From positions 1 through 63,968 of the forward strand of contig JAGWAU010000051.1 of NCBI GenBank assembly GCA_021296255.1: a stretch of DNA of 63,968 nt, given 5' to 3'. A program made the translations under genes and the position numbers. Shown piece after piece: positions 16,379-26,390 of the stretch. Numbering within the stretch: the first letter of the stretch is position 1; every line of letters begins with the position of its first letter. The notes under the pieces are model-generated. The model did not search any database. It was given only the letters and a program-made list of their open reading frames with translations, and was not told where the DNA came from. The DNA is from Alphaproteobacteria bacterium (GTDB lineage: Bacteria; Pseudomonadota; Alphaproteobacteria; UBA2966).

Positions 16379-16670
16379 GCCGCCTCGGTTGGCGACGCGG
16401 GAATCGACGTGCTCCCCGGAATCCCAGGCACTGCCGTGTTGGTTTTCTGAAATCGGCCTCGCCCCCGGTGGAAACTACTGTGTGAGCGACATCACGGTCC
16501 GCATACAAAGGGCGGAGGATATCGAGAAAGCTTCCAGCGTCTCAAACTTCAACCGATTCTCAAACAGACCAGCGTCAAATCGGCTTGGTTCGATAATTTG
16601 TCATTTGCCAGCGGAGAGGAAGTTCGTGCGGAGTGCGATACTGCTGAATTCGCCGGGGCGGATCGGAAGA

Positions 16671-16686
16671 GTGGAGGCCAGGACCG
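16671..16686. repeat. Left attachment site (attL)
   Basis: GTGGAGGCCAGGACCG is identical to 26316-26331, where it covers the 3' end of tRNA-Cys. This copy is only the tRNA tail, as expected for the element's distal junction after integration into a tRNA 3' end. Confidence 0.85.
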
Positions 16687-16936: not shown

Positions 16937-17719
16937 ATGGCGAACTACCTCACAGTCTTTGACCGCCTACGACGCATTCGAGATTGTCGACGCTTTACCG
17001 CGAAAGAGCTGGGTCTGCTGTATACGATGGCCCTGTACGGGAACGCCGACGGAGAGAACATATTTCCCGGACAGAAACGATTGGCCGCAGACTGCGGGAT
17101 GGCAATACGGAGCCTTCGGCGGACCCAGAAACAGCTTGAGGATGACGGTATCATTTCATGCGTGGGCGGCGGACGCGGGAAGGGGAACGCTAAAGAATGG
17201 AGGATCAACTGGCCAGATCCAAAAGGGGACACTGGTGACCCCTTTTCAGATTCAAAAGAGGACACTGGTGACGGCAAAAGGGGTCATTTGACGTCGTCAA
17301 AAGGGGTCACCAGTGTCCCCCCAACAGGAGTAATACCAGCTCAAGAACGGTTTTCGCGCGCGCACGCGCACGAGGCCGAGCAAGCCCTACCATCCGAGTT
17401 TGAGAAACCCATCGAGAATGTGGGTACCGACGCATCGCGAGAGCGATCCTTACCACGATGCCGATGGTCGGGCTGTGAGGACCGCGGGTTTGACCACGGT
17501 TATTGCGACCGGCACGAGAAGGAACTGACCCGGCAAGAAATTCTGGCTGCCGTGAGAGAGGGCAGGCCGTTACGCCGGCGAGACCTTCGAGATCGTCTCA
17601 CCTGCCCGACCCGGCTTGGCGTTGAGCTAGAATATCTCGAAAAGCAGTCGTACATCGCCCGCGTGCCCGACACCGTTCCGATCCAATGGACGGTTGCCAA
17701 GACGGAGGCGGCCGCATGA
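16937..17719 (+). CDS. Winged-helix replication initiator-like protein (lambda O type)
   Basis: A 260-residue protein with an N-terminal winged helix, about residues 15-80 (LLYTMALYGNADGENIFPGQKRLAADCGMAIRSLRRTQKQLEDDGII), as in the HTH domain of phage replication proteins. The middle, about 95-130, is a low-complexity stretch encoded by iteron-like repeats, and the C-terminus contains a Cys/His cluster (CRWSGCEDRGFDHGYCDRH, about 175-193) that could bind zinc. ATG 16937 is preceded by AGAGGAGAA. The TGA overlaps the ATG of the terminase gene. The initiator role is inferred from the HTH, the internal repeats and first position in the satellite; a transcription regulator is the alternative. 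Confidence 0.6.
   Translation: MANYLTVFDRLRRIRDCRRFTAKELGLLYTMALYGNADGENIFPGQKRLAADCGMAIRSLRRTQKQLEDDGIISCVGGGRGKGNAKEWRINWPDPKGDTGDPFSDSKEDTGDGKRGHLTSSKGVTSVPPTGVIPAQERFSRAHAHEAEQALPSEFEKPIENVGTDASRERSLPRCRWSGCEDRGFDHGYCDRHEKELTRQEILAAVREGRPLRRRDLRDRLTCPTRLGVELEYLEKQSYIARVPDTVPIQWTVAKTEAAA
17221..17320. other. Iteron-like repeats, possible replication origin
   Basis: Four related units beginning AAAAGGGG or AAAAGAGG start at 17221, 17254, 17276 and 17299, about one or one and a half 22-base steps apart. The first (17221-17246) is itself near-palindromic with perfect 8-bp arms AAAAGGGG/CCCCTTTT. The central 22 bases of unit 1 are the exact reverse complement of unit 4 (17299-17320). The units lie inside the HTH gene, as lambda's O iterons lie inside gene O. 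A moderately A/T-rich stretch follows. Confidence 0.6.
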
Positions 17720-19330
17720 GGATCGGCACGAGAAACAACGCCGTGGGGACCCCTGCGTCGGTGAAAGTTCCGGTGGGGGAAAACCGGCTGGGGAGTCACG
17801 ATTCCACACAAATCACTGCCGGCCCGGCTGATTTCGTACCTTGAAGGGCTCACGCTCGCCGGCGGAGACCACGACGGCGAGGCGTTCGAGGTCCTGGCGT
17901 GGGAGCGCCGATTCGTGCGCGGGGCCTTCGGGCGGCCGGGCCACGCGGCCTTGAGCGTCGCCAGGGGCAACGGCAAGTCGGCGCTGGTGGCCGGGATTGC
18001 GGCGGCGGTTGCCGATCCGGACGGGCCGCTGCACGGAAACCGGCGTGAGGCGGTATGCGTGGCGTCAAGCTTCGATCAAGGCCGGACGATCTTCGAGGAC
18101 GTGCTGGCGTTCCTTCGAGGCCGGCACGACCTGGGACACCGGGGCCGCTGGCGTATCCAGGACTCCGCAAACCGCGCCACGGTTGAATACCGGCCGACGG
18201 GTGCGCGCGTGCGGTGCGTTGGCTCCGATCCGGCGCGGGCGCATGGCCTACGGCCCGCCCTGGCGCTGCTCGATGAGCCGGCGCAATGGGACGTTGCGAA
18301 GCAAGACCGGATGCTTGCCGCGATCCGCACGAGCATGGGGAAGGTTCCCGGATCGAAGCTGATCGCGCTCGGGACGCGGCCGGCCGACGATCAACACTGG
18401 TTCGCCCGGATGCTTGCCGGGGCCGGTACCGCCTACGCGCAAAGCCACGCGGCGACGCCAACCGATCCGCCGTTCCGGGCCCGGACCTGGCGCAAGGCGA
18501 ATCCGTCGCTCGATCATTTGCCGTCGCTGCTCGCGGAGCTCCGCCAGGAAGCGGCCGACGCGAAGGCGGACCCGACCATGCTTGCGGCCTTCCGGGCGCT
18601 CCGGTTGAACCTTGGCACGTCGGACGTAGAGGTTGGAGTCCTGCTCGACGCCGTGACCTGGGAGCGCATCGAGGGCGACGCGGAGCTCGCCGGGCAATGC
18701 GTCTGGGGCGTCGATCTGGGGCAGAACGCGGCACAAAGCGCCGTGGCGGCCTACTGGCCTAAAACGGGCCGCCTGGAGGCGGTAGCGGCCTTCCCGGCCG
18801 ATCCGCCTTTGCCGGAGCGCGGCCTGCGGGACGGTGTGGGGCGGCTATACGTGGAATGCGAGCGCCGGGGCGAGCTCGTGACGCTCGGACAACGCACGGT
18901 CCCCGTCGAGGCACTGTTTGCGCTCGCAATGGCGCGCTTCGGGCGACCGTCGCGCGTGGTCGCGGATCGGTGGCGCGAGGCAGAGCTACGCGACGCGCTC
19001 GACGCGGCCCGCGTGCCTACGGCGGCCGTCGAGGTCCGGGGCCAGGGGTTCAAGGACGGTGGAGAGGACGTGCGCGATTTCCGGCGCGCGTGCCTGGAGG
19101 GCCGCGTGACTCCGGTGCCGTCGCTGCTGCTGCGCTCCGCCCTGGCCGAAGCGCGAACGGTCTCCGATCCGGCGGGGAACGCGAAGCTGGCGAAGTCGAC
19201 TCAAGGCGGGCGACGGCTCCGCGCCCGCGACGATGCGGCGGCCGCCGCGATCCTGGCGGTTGCGGCCGGCTCCAGGGTGGCCGGTCTACAGCCGCCGCGC
19301 CCGCCACGGTTCTTCGTGGCGGGCGGGTGA
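17716..19330 (+). CDS. Phage terminase large subunit
   Basis: The ATPase-nuclease motor packages DNA into the satellite capsid. The Walker A is RGNGKSALVAG, followed by ASSFDQGRTIFEDVLAFL; the Walker B region is LRPALALLDEPAQWD, and the nuclease domain begins near CVWGVDLGQNAAQSAVAAYW with its metal-binding Asp. The main frame opens only after a stop at 17762-17764 and has no ATG before the homology. The ATG at 17716, overlapping the upstream stop, reads into it if one base is removed from the GGGGGAAAA run near 17775-17783, giving 537 residues. The 3' end is followed by a second diverged copy of the C-terminal tail (19480-19567). Confidence 0.85.
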
Positions 19331-19901: not shown

Positions 19902-20198
19902 ATGAGTCGCCTCCACAAGTCATTGACACCACGCCAATGGGTACGCACACGCCAGGCCATCCTGGAGCGCGACGACTGGCGCTGCAGGGCGTGCGGGGCC
20001 TACGGGAACGAAGTCGATCACGTCCGGCCGCTCCACAAGGGCGGCGACCCCTGGGAGCCGGCCAATCTTCAGACGCTCTGCCGGTCCTGCCATATCGCAA
20101 AAACCGCCCGTGAGAACCGCCGGCCCATGACGCCTGCCGAATCTCGGTGGCGGATGCTGGTTGCGAAGTCGCTTGCCGAAGAAGAGGCATTTGAATAG
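19902..20198 (+). CDS. HNH endonuclease (packaging-associated)
   Basis: A 98-residue HNH nuclease. Zinc knuckle cysteines are Cys28, Cys31, Cys60 and Cys63. The catalytic motif has Asp39-His40 in NEVDHVRPLHKGG, Asn55 and His64 in CRSCHIAKTARENR. Such small HNH proteins next to terminase and HK97-type capsid genes assist cos-end cleavage during packaging. GGAGAAAGGA lies just before the ATG. Its place between terminase and capsid genes fits that role. Confidence 0.9.
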   Translation: MSRLHKSLTPRQWVRTRQAILERDDWRCRACGAYGNEVDHVRPLHKGGDPWEPANLQTLCRSCHIAKTARENRRPMTPAESRWRMLVAKSLAEEEAFE

Positions 20199-20234: not shown

Positions 20235-21503
20235 ATGACACCGAGACAGAAGCTTCAACTTGAGCAATCCGAAAAGCGTCAGAAGATCAATGATCTTCTC
20301 GGCAAGGACGAGCTGACCGACGATGAGCGCAACGAGCTCGACACGCTCACCAAGCGTATGCAGCAAATCGAGGTCGAGATGCGCGCCGCCATCGTCGCGG
20401 AGGGTGACGACGAAACCCGCGCCCGTGGCATGTTCGATGACGCGGACGCGGAGGCCGGCGAGCGCGGCCGGCTGCTCCGGGAAATCACGCTTGCCGATTA
20501 TCTGTCGCCGGCGGCGGCGGGCGGTGCGCTCCAGGGGCGGGCGGCGGAGCTTAACGCGGCCTTGGGCGTTCCGGCCGTAGGCACGCGCGGCGGCGTGGCC
20601 GTGCCCTGGGCCGTCCTGGAAACCCGCGCTTTCACGACCACGGCCGCGAACGACGGCCCGGAGGCGCAACGGCCGATCCTTCAACGGCTTTTCGGGCCCG
20701 GAATCCTGGACACGCTCGGCGTGAGGATGGACTCCGTTCCGGCCGGCCGCTCCGAGTGGCCGCTACTGACGGCCGGCGTTGCGCCCGCGCAAGCGAAGGA
20801 AGGCGACGCGGCGGCGGCGGCCGTGGCGGCGACGTTCGAGTACGCCAATCTGAAACCGAAGCGGCTCACGGGCACCTACGAGTTCACGCACGAGGAAGCG
20901 GCGAGCGTGGGCGAAATCGAGGCGGCGTTGCGCCGCGACTTGGCCGACGCGGTGAAGTCGAAAATGTCAGACGTGATCCTGAACGGGGCGAAAGCGACGG
21001 ACGCGGCACCGGAGAATATCGCGGGGTTCCTGAACGCTATCGCCGCGCCGGACGACGCGGCGGCGACGGCCACCTTTGCCGACTATGCCGGCGCGCACGC
21101 GGCGGGCGTTGACGGGATTCATGCCGAAATCGAAACCGAAGTGTCGAGCGTGATCGGGACCGATGTCTACCAGCACGCGGCGACGGTCTATCAAGCGGGT
21201 TCGGGGGAGTCCGGTAGTGAAGCCTTAAGGCGCCGCTCCATGTCTTGCCGGGCTTCCTCGTACATTCCCGCTGCCGCGAACGCCGGGCAGTCAAAGGGGA
21301 ATGTCTTTCACCTTGCCGGCCCGAACGGCGGCGGCGTCATGCGGGGCGATTCCGTCGCGGCAATGTGGCCGACCCTGGAAGTGATCCGGGACATTTACAC
21401 CAAAGCGTCGCAAGGCGTGGTGCTGACCTGGGTGGCCTTGTGGGACGCCAAGGTTGCGTTCCGGGCGGCGGCTTATCAGAGGGTCGCCTTCAAGATCACG
21501 TGA
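20235..21503 (+). CDS. HK97-type phage major capsid protein
   Basis: The 422-residue capsid subunit has a charged N-terminal coiled coil of about 90 residues (QLEQSEKRQKINDLLGKDELTDDERNELDTL), matching the HK97 delta/scaffold domain that the protease removes. The mature HK97 fold follows, with FTTTAANDG, the E-loop/N-arm region and a C-terminal beta-rich domain (GVMRGDSVAAMWPTLEVIRD to the end). Ala/Gly-rich composition is typical. A 6-bp inverted repeat (CGTTAT 20199-20204, ATAACG 20217-20222) lies just before the gene. The protease and portal genes follow, confirming a head module. Confidence 0.9.
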   Translation: MTPRQKLQLEQSEKRQKINDLLGKDELTDDERNELDTLTKRMQQIEVEMRAAIVAEGDDETRARGMFDDADAEAGERGRLLREITLADYLSPAAAGGALQGRAAELNAALGVPAVGTRGGVAVPWAVLETRAFTTTAANDGPEAQRPILQRLFGPGILDTLGVRMDSVPAGRSEWPLLTAGVAPAQAKEGDAAAAAVAATFEYANLKPKRLTGTYEFTHEEAASVGEIEAALRRDLADAVKSKMSDVILNGAKATDAAPENIAGFLNAIAAPDDAAATATFADYAGAHAAGVDGIHAEIETEVSSVIGTDVYQHAATVYQAGSGESGSEALRRRSMSCRASSYIPAAANAGQSKGNVFHLAGPNGGGVMRGDSVAAMWPTLEVIRDIYTKASQGVVLTWVALWDAKVAFRAAAYQRVAFKIT

Positions 21504-21954: not shown

Positions 21955-22884
21955 ATGAGAATCGAGACACGGCGCGCGGAGCTTCGGGCCGAAGGCGGGC
22001 GGCGGCTGTCGGGCGTCGTGATCCGGTACGGCGACGTAGCCGAATTTCCTTGGGGCCGGGAACGCTTCACGCCTGGGGCCTTCGCGCCGATCGGCGACGT
22101 CTTGCTGAACGCGCAACACGATCGACGGACGCCACTAGCACGGACTGGGGCCGGCCTCGAGCTCCGGGACGGGCCGGACTCGCTCGAGCTCGAGGCGACG
22201 TTGCCGAATACGAGGACGGCAGACGACGTGCTCGAGCTTGTGCGGGCCGGCGTGCTCCGGGGCCTTTCCATCGAGTTCGAGGCGAAGGCCGAGCGCATGG
22301 AGTCCGGAGTGCGCGTGGTCGACAAGGCGCGGCTCGCGGCCGTGGGCGTGGTCGACACGCCGGCCTATCCACAATCCGAAGTCGAGGCGCGGCGGCGCGG
22401 CGAGCGGCGGACGTGGGTGCGCGGCGGTATCAAGTACGGCGTCAAGGCGCATTGCGCCTGCCTGGACGGCGAGTGCGATGAAGTCTTTTTCCGGCCCGAA
22501 GTGTTGGAGGTCCTGGACTCCGCGATTGCGACCGTGGGCCGGGCAACTGAGGCCGTGGGGAGCGTCCGGGGCGGGTCGCTGCGAGTCCGGAATACACCGG
22601 AGCGTTTCGAGTTTGAGATAGACGACGCGGGCCGGGATACCGTCGCCGGTCGCCAGTTGGCGGACCTGGACGCGACGGGGACACCGGTCTACGCGCGGCC
22701 GATTATCGACCAGGACGGCGCGGCCTTCGAGGATATCGAGGGCGTACGGCATTACGACAAAGCACCAGTCCGCGCGTTGCTGCTAAAGCCGATCATGGGG
22801 CCGGACGAACGGGCGGAGAATTGGGAAACGCTCGACTTCGAGGGCGGGCGGGCACGGCCCGCAAGGCGGCGCATATGGCTCTAG
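21955..22884 (+). CDS. HK97 family prohead protease
   Basis: A 309-residue protein whose first 160 residues form the HK97-type serine protease: GRRLSGVVIRYGDVAEFPWGRERFTPGAF, LNAQHDRRTPLARTG with the catalytic His, and VLRGLSIEFEAKAERME with the catalytic Ser of GLSIEF. It trims the capsid delta domain before DNA entry. The second half (about 165-309) is an extra domain with CACLDGECDEVFF and a predicted beta-rich tail, longer than in simple proteases. ATG 21955 was chosen; a frame open further upstream overlaps the previous gene and lacks homology. Confidence 0.85.
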   Translation: MRIETRRAELRAEGGRRLSGVVIRYGDVAEFPWGRERFTPGAFAPIGDVLLNAQHDRRTPLARTGAGLELRDGPDSLELEATLPNTRTADDVLELVRAGVLRGLSIEFEAKAERMESGVRVVDKARLAAVGVVDTPAYPQSEVEARRRGERRTWVRGGIKYGVKAHCACLDGECDEVFFRPEVLEVLDSAIATVGRATEAVGSVRGGSLRVRNTPERFEFEIDDAGRDTVAGRQLADLDATGTPVYARPIIDQDGAAFEDIEGVRHYDKAPVRALLLKPIMGPDERAENWETLDFEGGRARPARRRIWL

Positions 22885-23217: not shown

Positions 23218-24278
23218 TCCGGTGGCCGTGGTCCAAACCGGAGCGGCGGGCGAGCTATACCGACTCCGTCGTCTCGGCCTTGCTGTCGGCCGCGTCGGGC
23301 AAGGCCGCGTCCGCGACCGCGACGGCGGCGGTTGAAGCGGCGGCCGGGGCCGTGGCGCGGGGCTTCGCGGCGGCGAGTATCGAGGGCGCGCCGGGGCCGG
23401 TCGCGGATGCGCTCGGGCCTCACGTCCTGGCGCGGATCGGCCGCGACCTGATTCGCCACGGCGACTCCATTCACGTCATCCAGACGGCCGGCGGGGCGTT
23501 GCGCCTGGCGCAAGCCGGAGCGTGGGACATTCGAGGCGGGCCTGACCCCGCGCAATGGTGGGTGCGGGCGGACCTGTTCGGGCCGTCCGGGAACGTGACG
23601 CGCCTGGTACAGCACGCGGGAGTCGTCCATTGCCGCTATGCCGTGGACCCGGCGCGGCCGTGGATCGGCGTCGGGCCGCTCCAGTGGGCGAGCATGGCCG
23701 GCGACCTTCACGCCGGCGTAGTGGCGTCCCTGGCGGCCGATATGAGGGCGGCGAGCGCCTACGCGGTGCCTATGCCGCCGGGCGAAAACGCGGGCGAAGA
23801 ATCCGACGATCCGCTCGACGGCCTCCGGGCCGCGTTGCTCAAGGCGAAGGGAAAATCCGTGTTCGTCGAATCGACACGGGGAGGCTTTGGCGGAGATCAC
23901 CGGGACGCGCCGGCGCGCGATTGGAAACAGGAACGCCTCGGGGCCGATCCGCCCGAGTCCCTGGCGATGTTGCATGATGCAACCGCGAATGTCGTCCTGG
24001 CTGCGTGCGGCGTGGACCCGGTGATCGTCGGCTTCGGCAAGTTCGATGGGAGCTTTGCCCGGGAGGGCTTTCGGCGTTTCGAGCGCCTGACGCTTCGGCC
24101 GCTGGCGCGGATCGTCGAGGCGGAGCTCCGCGCGAAACTCGACGCGCCCGGCCTTACACTCGACTTCGGGACGCTCCGGGCGTCTGACTTCGCCGGGATC
24201 GCCCGCGCTTACAAGGCGTTGGTGGAGTCCGGACTGTCGCCGGCGGAAGCGGCCGGGCAGTTGGATATGGAAACCTAA
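23214..24278 (+). CDS. Phage portal protein (HK97 type)
   Basis: A 354-residue portal, shorter than the roughly 400-residue HK97 family norm, forming the DNA entry ring. GTG 23214 is the likely start because it overlaps the connector stop and homology begins with WPWSKPERRASYTDSVV. Recognisable parts are GDSIHVIQTAGGALRLAQAGAWDIRGG, WIGVGPLQWASMAGDLHA and the C-terminal LMLHDATANVVLAACGVDPVIVG (LAMLHD here) with FDGSFAREGFRRFERLTLRPLARIVEAEL. The end carries an Ala/Gly-rich helix. It closes the head module; no adaptor or tail genes follow. Confidence 0.85.
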   Translation: MIRWPWSKPERRASYTDSVVSALLSAASGKAASATATAAVEAAAGAVARGFAAASIEGAPGPVADALGPHVLARIGRDLIRHGDSIHVIQTAGGALRLAQAGAWDIRGGPDPAQWWVRADLFGPSGNVTRLVQHAGVVHCRYAVDPARPWIGVGPLQWASMAGDLHAGVVASLAADMRAASAYAVPMPPGENAGEESDDPLDGLRAALLKAKGKSVFVESTRGGFGGDHRDAPARDWKQERLGADPPESLAMLHDATANVVLAACGVDPVIVGFGKFDGSFAREGFRRFERLTLRPLARIVEAELRAKLDAPGLTLDFGTLRASDFAGIARAYKALVESGLSPAEAAGQLDMET

Positions 24279-25043: not shown

Positions 25044-25213
25044 GGGAACATATTGCGATCAGCACTGGCGCATGTGACAATATGTGCCGCTACGCGGTGT
25101 GAGACCACCCGTAGCTTGGTTCACTACCAGTTGGGATGCGCAGTGAACGCTACCATCATATCACCTCCCCTCCGCCCAACAATCCCACCCGGTGATTGGC
25201 TGAGACTAGAGCC

Positions 25214-26302
25214 GTGAGAAATCGGCTTCCTCCCTACGTCTACCGCGAGCGCACGCGGCATGGGCGTTGGGTGTTCTACTTCCGGCGCGGGAAGGGCCGC
25301 CGTGTCCGGCTTCCCGATGATCCCACGTCACCAGATTTCGAGTCGGCCTATCACGCCGCGCTGATCGGGAACGCGCCACCCGTGGCAAGAGACCAAGCGC
25401 CGTCGCAAGGCTCTTTGCGTTGGCTGGTGGACCGATACCGCGAAAGCGCCGCGTGGCGGCAACTGGCTCCAGCGACGCGCAGGCAGCGGGAGCGGATTTT
25501 CCTTAGAGCCATCCAGAAGGCGGACAATGCGCCGTTCGCCGCGATCACCCAGGCTCACATTCAGGAAGTGATGGACAGGCGAGCGGACACGCCGGCGCAG
25601 GCAAACCACTTCCTTAAGTCCATGCGGGGGCTGTTCGCGTGGGCCGTGCGTAATGAGCATGTCCGCCAGGACCCGACCATCGGCGTTCAGTGGGCGCGGT
25701 ATCGCAGTGAAGGCTTCCCCGCATGGACGCCGGACGATGCGCAGGCGTTCCGGGATCGCCACCCGGTAGGCAGCAAGCCGCGTCTCGCTATGGAATTGCT
25801 TCTGCTCACGGGGCTGCGCCGATCCGATCTTGTCCGCGTCGGCCGCCAGCACTTGCGGGGCGATGTGCTCACGGTTCCCACGGTGAAGACGGGAACGACA
25901 GTCACGATCCGACTCCCGGCAACGCTGCTCCAGTTGATCGAATTGACACCCACGGGAGACATGCACTTCGTGGTCAACGAGCATGGGCGCCCGTTTGCGG
26001 TCGACTCCTTCGGCAACTGGTTTCACGACCGATGCCGGGAGGCCGGCATCAAAAAGAGCGCGCACGGTCTCCGCAAGCTATCCGCGACGCTGGCGGCCGA
26101 AGGCGGCGCGGCGGCTCATCAACTCATGGCTCAATACGGTTGGAGCAAGATCGTGCAAGCCGAAGTCTATACCAAAGCTGCCGACAGGGTGCGGCTCGGG
26201 AAGCAGTCTTCGGAGATCGTCGCGGGGCAAATCGAGAACAACATTCCCCGCACCTTGGTTTCGGACGCCCCGCACCCTTCAAAAAAGGTCTCTAAATCAT
26301 GA
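25214..26302 (+). CDS. Tyrosine recombinase/integrase
   Basis: A 362-residue phage-type integrase. The N-terminal arm-binding part begins RNRLPPYVYRERTRHGRWVFYFRRGKG, followed by a SAM-like core-binding domain (about 75-170) and the catalytic domain. The active-site residues visible are the Arg in LLLTGLRRSDLV, Lys in PTVKTGTTVT, His-x-x-Arg in AHGLRKLSATLA, Trp of AQYGWSK in place of the second His, and the nucleophile Tyr in AEVYTKAADR. GTG 25214 was chosen over TTG 25196 because homology starts there. The gene ends 14 bases before attR, typical for elements integrated in tRNA 3' ends. Confidence 0.92.
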   Translation: MRNRLPPYVYRERTRHGRWVFYFRRGKGRRVRLPDDPTSPDFESAYHAALIGNAPPVARDQAPSQGSLRWLVDRYRESAAWRQLAPATRRQRERIFLRAIQKADNAPFAAITQAHIQEVMDRRADTPAQANHFLKSMRGLFAWAVRNEHVRQDPTIGVQWARYRSEGFPAWTPDDAQAFRDRHPVGSKPRLAMELLLLTGLRRSDLVRVGRQHLRGDVLTVPTVKTGTTVTIRLPATLLQLIELTPTGDMHFVVNEHGRPFAVDSFGNWFHDRCREAGIKKSAHGLRKLSATLAAEGGAAAHQLMAQYGWSKIVQAEVYTKAADRVRLGKQSSEIVAGQIENNIPRTLVSDAPHPSKKVSKS

Positions 26303-26315
26303 GCTTAGAAAAGCG

Positions 26316-26331
26316 GTGGAGGCCAGGACCG
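26316..26331. repeat. Right attachment site (attR) inside tRNA-Cys
   Basis: Identical to 16671-16686. It covers the CCA end, discriminator base and most of the 3' acceptor strand of tRNA-Cys, so the tRNA stays intact at this junction. Confidence 0.85.
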
Positions 26332-26390
26332 GAATCGAACCGGTGTACACGGCTTTGCAGGCCGGTGCGTAGCCACTCCGCCACCTGGCC
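26317..26390 (-). tRNA. tRNA-Cys (anticodon GCA), satellite integration target
   Basis: A 74-nt minus-strand cloverleaf with acceptor GGCCAGG (26390-26384) pairing with CCTGGCC (26327-26321), discriminator T and encoded CCA. The anticodon loop reads CTGCAAA, and the T arm has GGTTCGATTCC. The satellite is joined to its 3' end, leaving the gene complete. Confidence 0.97.

Follow-up and report, generated by a model that had tools for sequence, protein, structure and literature searches.

Phage lambda and some plasmids already provide examples of a replication origin placed inside the gene of its own initiator. In lambda, the origin lies in the middle of the O gene and contains four iterons that are bound by the initiator (PMC7466680). 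The Rep protein of plasmid pSK41 has a winged-helix N-terminal domain (NTD), four Rep boxes lie centrally in rep, the linker is encoded by the origin, and a separate C-terminal domain (CTD) binds the host DnaG (PMC5703833). In pPR9, whose initiator has pfam13730 (HTH_36) as its NTD, the rep region can sustain autonomous replication (PMC5703833). The repC gene of p42d contains an AT-rich region, and iterons are absent (PMC3155836). In the described PICIs, the origin is located 3' of pri-rep, with two sets of iterons flanking an AT-rich region (PMC6092414).

Here, we analyzed a 63,968-bp stretch of alphaproteobacterial DNA (the window). It is very probable that the product of the gene at 16937-17719 is a winged-helix replication initiator and that the segment 17221-17320 is the in-gene iteron origin of the element that carries it. 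This reading is based on the repeats, their constraint at the DNA level, the match of the protein to initiator families, the boundaries of the element, and the same layout in relatives.

The initial annotation had described four repeat units with spacings of 33, 22 and 23 bases, and both direct reading and a repeat search bore this out, with unit starts at 17221, 17254, 17276 and 17299. The motif AAAAGGGG is present at 17221, 17276 and 17299, and AAAAGAGG, with one mismatch, at 17254. Iteron 1 (17221-17246) is a near-perfect 26-bp palindrome, AAAAGGGGACACTGGTGACCCCTTTT, composed of AAAAGGGGACAC-TG-GTGACCCCTTTT. Iteron 2 (17254-17272) reads AAAAGAGGACACTGGTGAC, iteron 3 (17276-17286) is the half site AAAAGGGGTCA, and iteron 4 (17299-17320) is AAAAGGGGTCACCAGTGTCCCC, the exact inverse of 17225-17246. 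Iteron 4 represents approximately the same palindrome as iteron 1, and iterons 2 and 3 retain mainly its left half. As had also been claimed, the outer units are inverted 22-nt copies of each other (17225-17246 and 17299-17320, 100% complementary), and the repeats are indeed located within a winged-helix coding region: the reading frame 16937-17719 is uninterrupted across them, and its product matches HTH_36. The array corresponds to codons 95-128 of 260, at the transition from the winged helix to the linker, where the disordered linker starts.

The 22-nt arm is the longest of all inverted repeats within 200 bp across the whole window, the runner-up being 14 nt. When the gene was shuffled with its dinucleotides preserved (200 copies), the longest inverted repeat was 16 nt, and 186 copies had none of at least 12 nt. 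We also counted nearby 9-mer repeat pairs in the initiator gene and found 33, compared to 2.3 ± 2.1 (maximum 11) in 300 synonymous-codon shuffles with the protein fixed. Its excess over the codon shuffles is far above that of the genes for the terminase large subunit (TerL), capsid, protease, portal and integrase. Because the repeats are lost in synonymous-codon shuffles that keep the protein, they are not a by-consequence of the protein sequence. The motif AAAAGGGGNCACNNGTG has no other copy in the 4.25-Mb genome, and the exact iteron motif had no match in viral contigs or in the other 189 genomes of the class.

The initiator consists of 260 amino acids, with an N-terminal HTH_36 winged helix, a disordered linker and a C-terminal part; its gene is on the forward strand. 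The HTH_36 domain (16997-17155, residues 21-73) matches PF13730 with an E-value of 2.9e-7 and a score of 30.6 bits, above the curated cut-off of 25. The protein also matches phage "replication initiation" families, the best being phrog_270 (E 1.6e-8), followed by phrog_1032 (1.5e-4), the 'O-like' phrog_678 (4.6e-4) and several further 'O-like' families. Judged by these profile matches, it belongs with the phage replication initiators of the HTH_36/phrog_270 type. An AF2 model, built on a six-row alignment of the protein and five distant relatives and reliable for the N-terminal winged helix alone, places this fold at approximately residues 20-75 (pLDDT about 70-92) and leaves the linker, approximately residues 96-190, unstructured (pLDDT below 50). 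Among the better PDB matches in Foldseek were the initiator N-terminal domains 4pql, 4pt7 and 5kbj as well as DnaD (2v79), alongside many MarR-type regulators, none of all the matches having an E-value below 0.001. Close homologues of the initiator were found neither in viral contigs, genome contigs and 385 genomes of the class nor among phages and plasmids. At its C-terminus (17485-17719), a C-x4-C...C-x2-H cluster precedes a possible second helix-turn-helix (weak Pfam match, below cut-off); cysteine-rich, zinc-ribbon-like segments also occur in the initiators of two related loci, L008 and L020.

The initial annotation had compared the locus to the plan of lambda gene O. This comparison holds for the position of the iterons: in lambda O and in the Stx phages P27 and 933W, too, they sit midway along the initiator gene, and in lambda O, as here, in the linker that follows the winged helix. 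It does not hold for the two other parts of the lambda plan: lambda has an AT-rich tract beside its iterons and a separate P loader, and neither was found here, the search for a P-like loader covering the ORFs scanned. The 60 bp downstream of the array contain 38% AT compared to 42% in the gene, and the best 40-mer reaches 50%. The array itself is a mild local stability minimum, and in the relatives the flank downstream of the arrays is slightly richer in AT than the gene (Wilcoxon p 0.03). No DnaA box was detected near the array. Phage_rep_O is absent among the Pfam matches of the initiator at E-values up to 1, and sequence similarity to lambda O is limited to the 'O-like' PHROGs with weak E-values.

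With pSK41 Rep and the RepA_N plasmids, the initiator shares the winged-helix NTD and an array that follows it in the linker, but the RepA_N profile (PF06970) gave no match, and no relationship between the C-terminal parts was detected. Thus, although it would resemble lambda O and RepA_N in its working, the protein is by Pfam a member of neither family. The hybrid initiators of pPR9 and pUSA03 have an NTD of the same Pfam family (HTH_36), whereas they come from Gram-positive plasmids and carry a pSK41-type CTD. pPR9 provides the nearest experimental support for an in-gene iteron origin. RepC of the alphaproteobacterial repABC plasmids likewise has its origin inside the initiator gene, as we propose here, and the L008 homologue gave a weak match to the RepC N-domain; p42d repC, however, lacks iterons, whereas the initiator gene of the window carries an array of them.

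The initiator gene is the first gene of a 9.66-kb element. The attL core (16671-16686, GTGGAGGCCAGGACCG) repeats 16 nt of the 3' end of tRNA-Cys exactly and in direct orientation, and the attR core (26316-26331) lies within the 3' end of this tRNA gene (26317-26390, minus strand). In a sister genome of the same genus (G388), the left flank adjoins an uninterrupted tRNA-Cys whose core has one mismatch, which represents an empty site. The empty site and the 16-nt repeats together identify the element as a 9.66-kb insertion. Approximately 200 bp to the left of attL (16468-16670) have no counterpart in the empty site of the sister genome; an older insertion may have left them behind, or the region may have diverged locally.

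Downstream of the initiator, all on the plus strand, are genes for the terminase large subunit (17858-19330; phrog_9, E 1.7e-54; relatives L008-L043), an HNH endonuclease (19902-20198; PF01844, E 3.8e-10), an HK97-type major capsid protein (20235-21503; PF05065, E 2.8e-5, just below the cut-off), a prohead protease (21955-22884, start approximate; PF04586, E 3.5e-19), a portal protein (23295-24278, start approximate; PF04860, E 2.5e-6, below the cut-off; phrog_12) and a tyrosine integrase (25196-26302; PF00589, E 5.5e-11). The first canonical in-frame start of the terminase is a GTG at 17915, and homology begins further upstream: between 17765 and 17915 the frame is open and homologous ahead of the first ATG, GTG or TTG. 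Translation may start at ATT (17801) or CTG (17816), or a frameshift may lie between the terminase frame and a short ORF starting at 17716 and overlapping the stop codon of the initiator gene. The scan covered the main ORFs, a few small ORFs being left without a match, and recognized no tail, lysis, primase or helicase-loader genes among the ORFs scanned. By its gene content, the element is a small, integrated, virus-like satellite that is tail-less and codes for its own capsid. It is comparable to the cf-PICIs, which are integrated satellites that encode a capsid and a packaging module of their own and lack a tail: capsid, terminase, portal and HNH genes are present, and tail genes are absent. 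Unlike a cf-PICI, it gave no match to an AlpA-type regulator or a primase among the ORFs scanned, and its presumed origin lies inside the initiator gene, whereas that of described PICIs lies 3' of rep.

The neighborhoods of terminase relatives include initiators of broadly the same type, with 20-30% identity to that of the window. At the same position in the gene, the L008 initiator has two palindromes, GATGCCCATATTGGGC(A/T)TC, 21 bp apart, that of L029 has four copies of CAGTCCCACCAGCGGGAC with spacings of 21, 52 and 44 bp, and that of L032 has a 23-bp tandem. Each of these three arrays exceeds all 300 of 300 codon shuffles. A similar gene is found in two further terminase relatives, with a weak array in L020 and none in L012. 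In viral contigs, the initiators of L029 and L032 had no relatives other than themselves. Across L008, L029, L032 and the window, the arrangement is kept, and the repeat sequence is not. The related locus L009 has the same tail-less layout as the element of the window, and the metagenome-assembled genome Rhodospirillaceae bacterium bin65 carries two different elements (L008 and L010) with related terminases. In remoter terminase relatives from Rhodobacteraceae (L015-L019 and L023-L027), inspection of the ORF translations by eye revealed primase- or AAA-type replication genes upstream and no winged-helix initiator. Since these genes stand in the place of the initiator, elements that share one packaging module seem to swap their replication modules.

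A search with phrog_270 gave matches in 59 of 289 genomes of the class. Strong in-gene arrays, by thresholds of our own choosing, were present at 15 of 30 alphaproteobacterial phrog_270 loci, which are not phylogenetically independent, compared to none of 55 other long ORFs of the same loci; several of the array-negative cases are short or partial frames. A repeat array in the linker segment is thus a trait of about half the sample, and the gene of the window has one. With the latter left out, 34 of 82 direct repeat pairs were 21-24 bp apart, compared to 6.7 expected for a uniform distribution, and 20 pairs were spaced by 22 or 23 bp, compared to 0.24 in codon shuffles. Spacings of 22 and 23 bp are out of frame, and therefore the constraint acts on the DNA. 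Conspicuous in-gene arrays with private motifs were seen in the phrog_270 genes of L046, L048, L055, L063, L066 and L073; that of L046 consists of CCGGCACA in steps of 11-12 bp, and that of L063 of TGAGCAGG-type units spaced by 22 or 23 bp. As far as these comparisons go, the in-gene layout is common among distant relatives, each with its own repeat sequence. In the open-licence full text, we found no paper that describes in-gene arrays systematically in this initiator class.

Other explanations of the array have to be considered. Palindromes bound by a winged-helix protein resemble repressor sites, and SlyA, RovA and MarR regulators are among the sequence and fold neighbors of the domain. The protein might therefore repress its own gene by a roadblock or regulate the downstream capsid operon, while replication starts elsewhere or depends on a helper. 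Yet the array sits in the middle of the gene, no promoter-like site was found near it when scored against the σ70 consensus only, a series of phased copies within the linker segment is characteristic of initiators, and the families that the protein matches best are replication proteins. We regard such an operator as improbable.

Even less probable, in our view, is that the array functions in the message as a 22-bp stem that attenuates transcription or controls translation. The predicted fold is strong (-55.5 kcal/mol, z -6.6), and one terminator-like site lies on the minus strand. The fold, however, is the automatic outcome of the inverted repeat itself, and terminator-like sites are no more common than in shuffles. 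Moreover, the arrays of the relatives at the same place are mostly direct repeats, which would not form one stem. Slippage or duplication in the disordered linker, with constraint at the protein level only, is just as improbable an explanation. Repetitive linkers do evolve rapidly, the spacing of 33 bp is in frame, and the peptides encoded by units 1 and 2 resemble each other (KGDTGD and KEDTGD). However, the other spacings, 22 and 23 bp, are out of frame, the gene reads through the 22-nt sequence once in each orientation, shuffling the codons with the protein preserved removes the repeats, and the out-of-frame phasing of 22 and 23 bp recurs in unrelated arrays.

For the in-gene iteron origin, we infer the following course of events. 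Contact with the units would probably be made by the N-terminal winged helix of the initiator, which would sit as a dimer on the outer, palindromic units and have a lower affinity for the inner, degenerate ones. With centers 33, 22 and 23 bp apart, all units would lie on roughly one face of the helix, and approximately two helical turns per unit would suit proteins bound side by side on that face. The resulting complex, similar to the O-some, might strain the DNA nearby and open it, after which host helicase or primase might be recruited by the C-terminal part of the initiator. With the host machinery in place, the excised circle would begin to replicate in theta mode, so that the initiator would provide for autonomous replication. 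This course follows the way in which lambda O functions, and the layout that it presupposes is that of pSK41 Rep.

What may be new is not the in-gene layout but its frequency in the HTH_36/phrog_270 initiator class. A broader proposal, plausible but more tentative, is that the HTH_36/phrog_270 initiators of satellites and prophages may form a large, unsystematized class with private iterons for each protein, helically phased at about 22.5 bp, in their linker codons, and that minimal capsid satellites may replicate from one self-contained gene without a primase or loader of their own. The array provides a candidate origin, open to testing, for an alphaproteobacterial satellite that lacks a tail and codes for its capsid. 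The simple rule of looking for phased repeats where a winged-helix gene encodes its linker would locate origins and pair initiators with their iterons, and it would apply to many uncharacterized prophages and satellites. Since the protein and its target are contained in one gene, a cassette exchange would change the replication specificity in one step. Such a change could help elements to avoid incompatibility, as has been proposed for pPR9.
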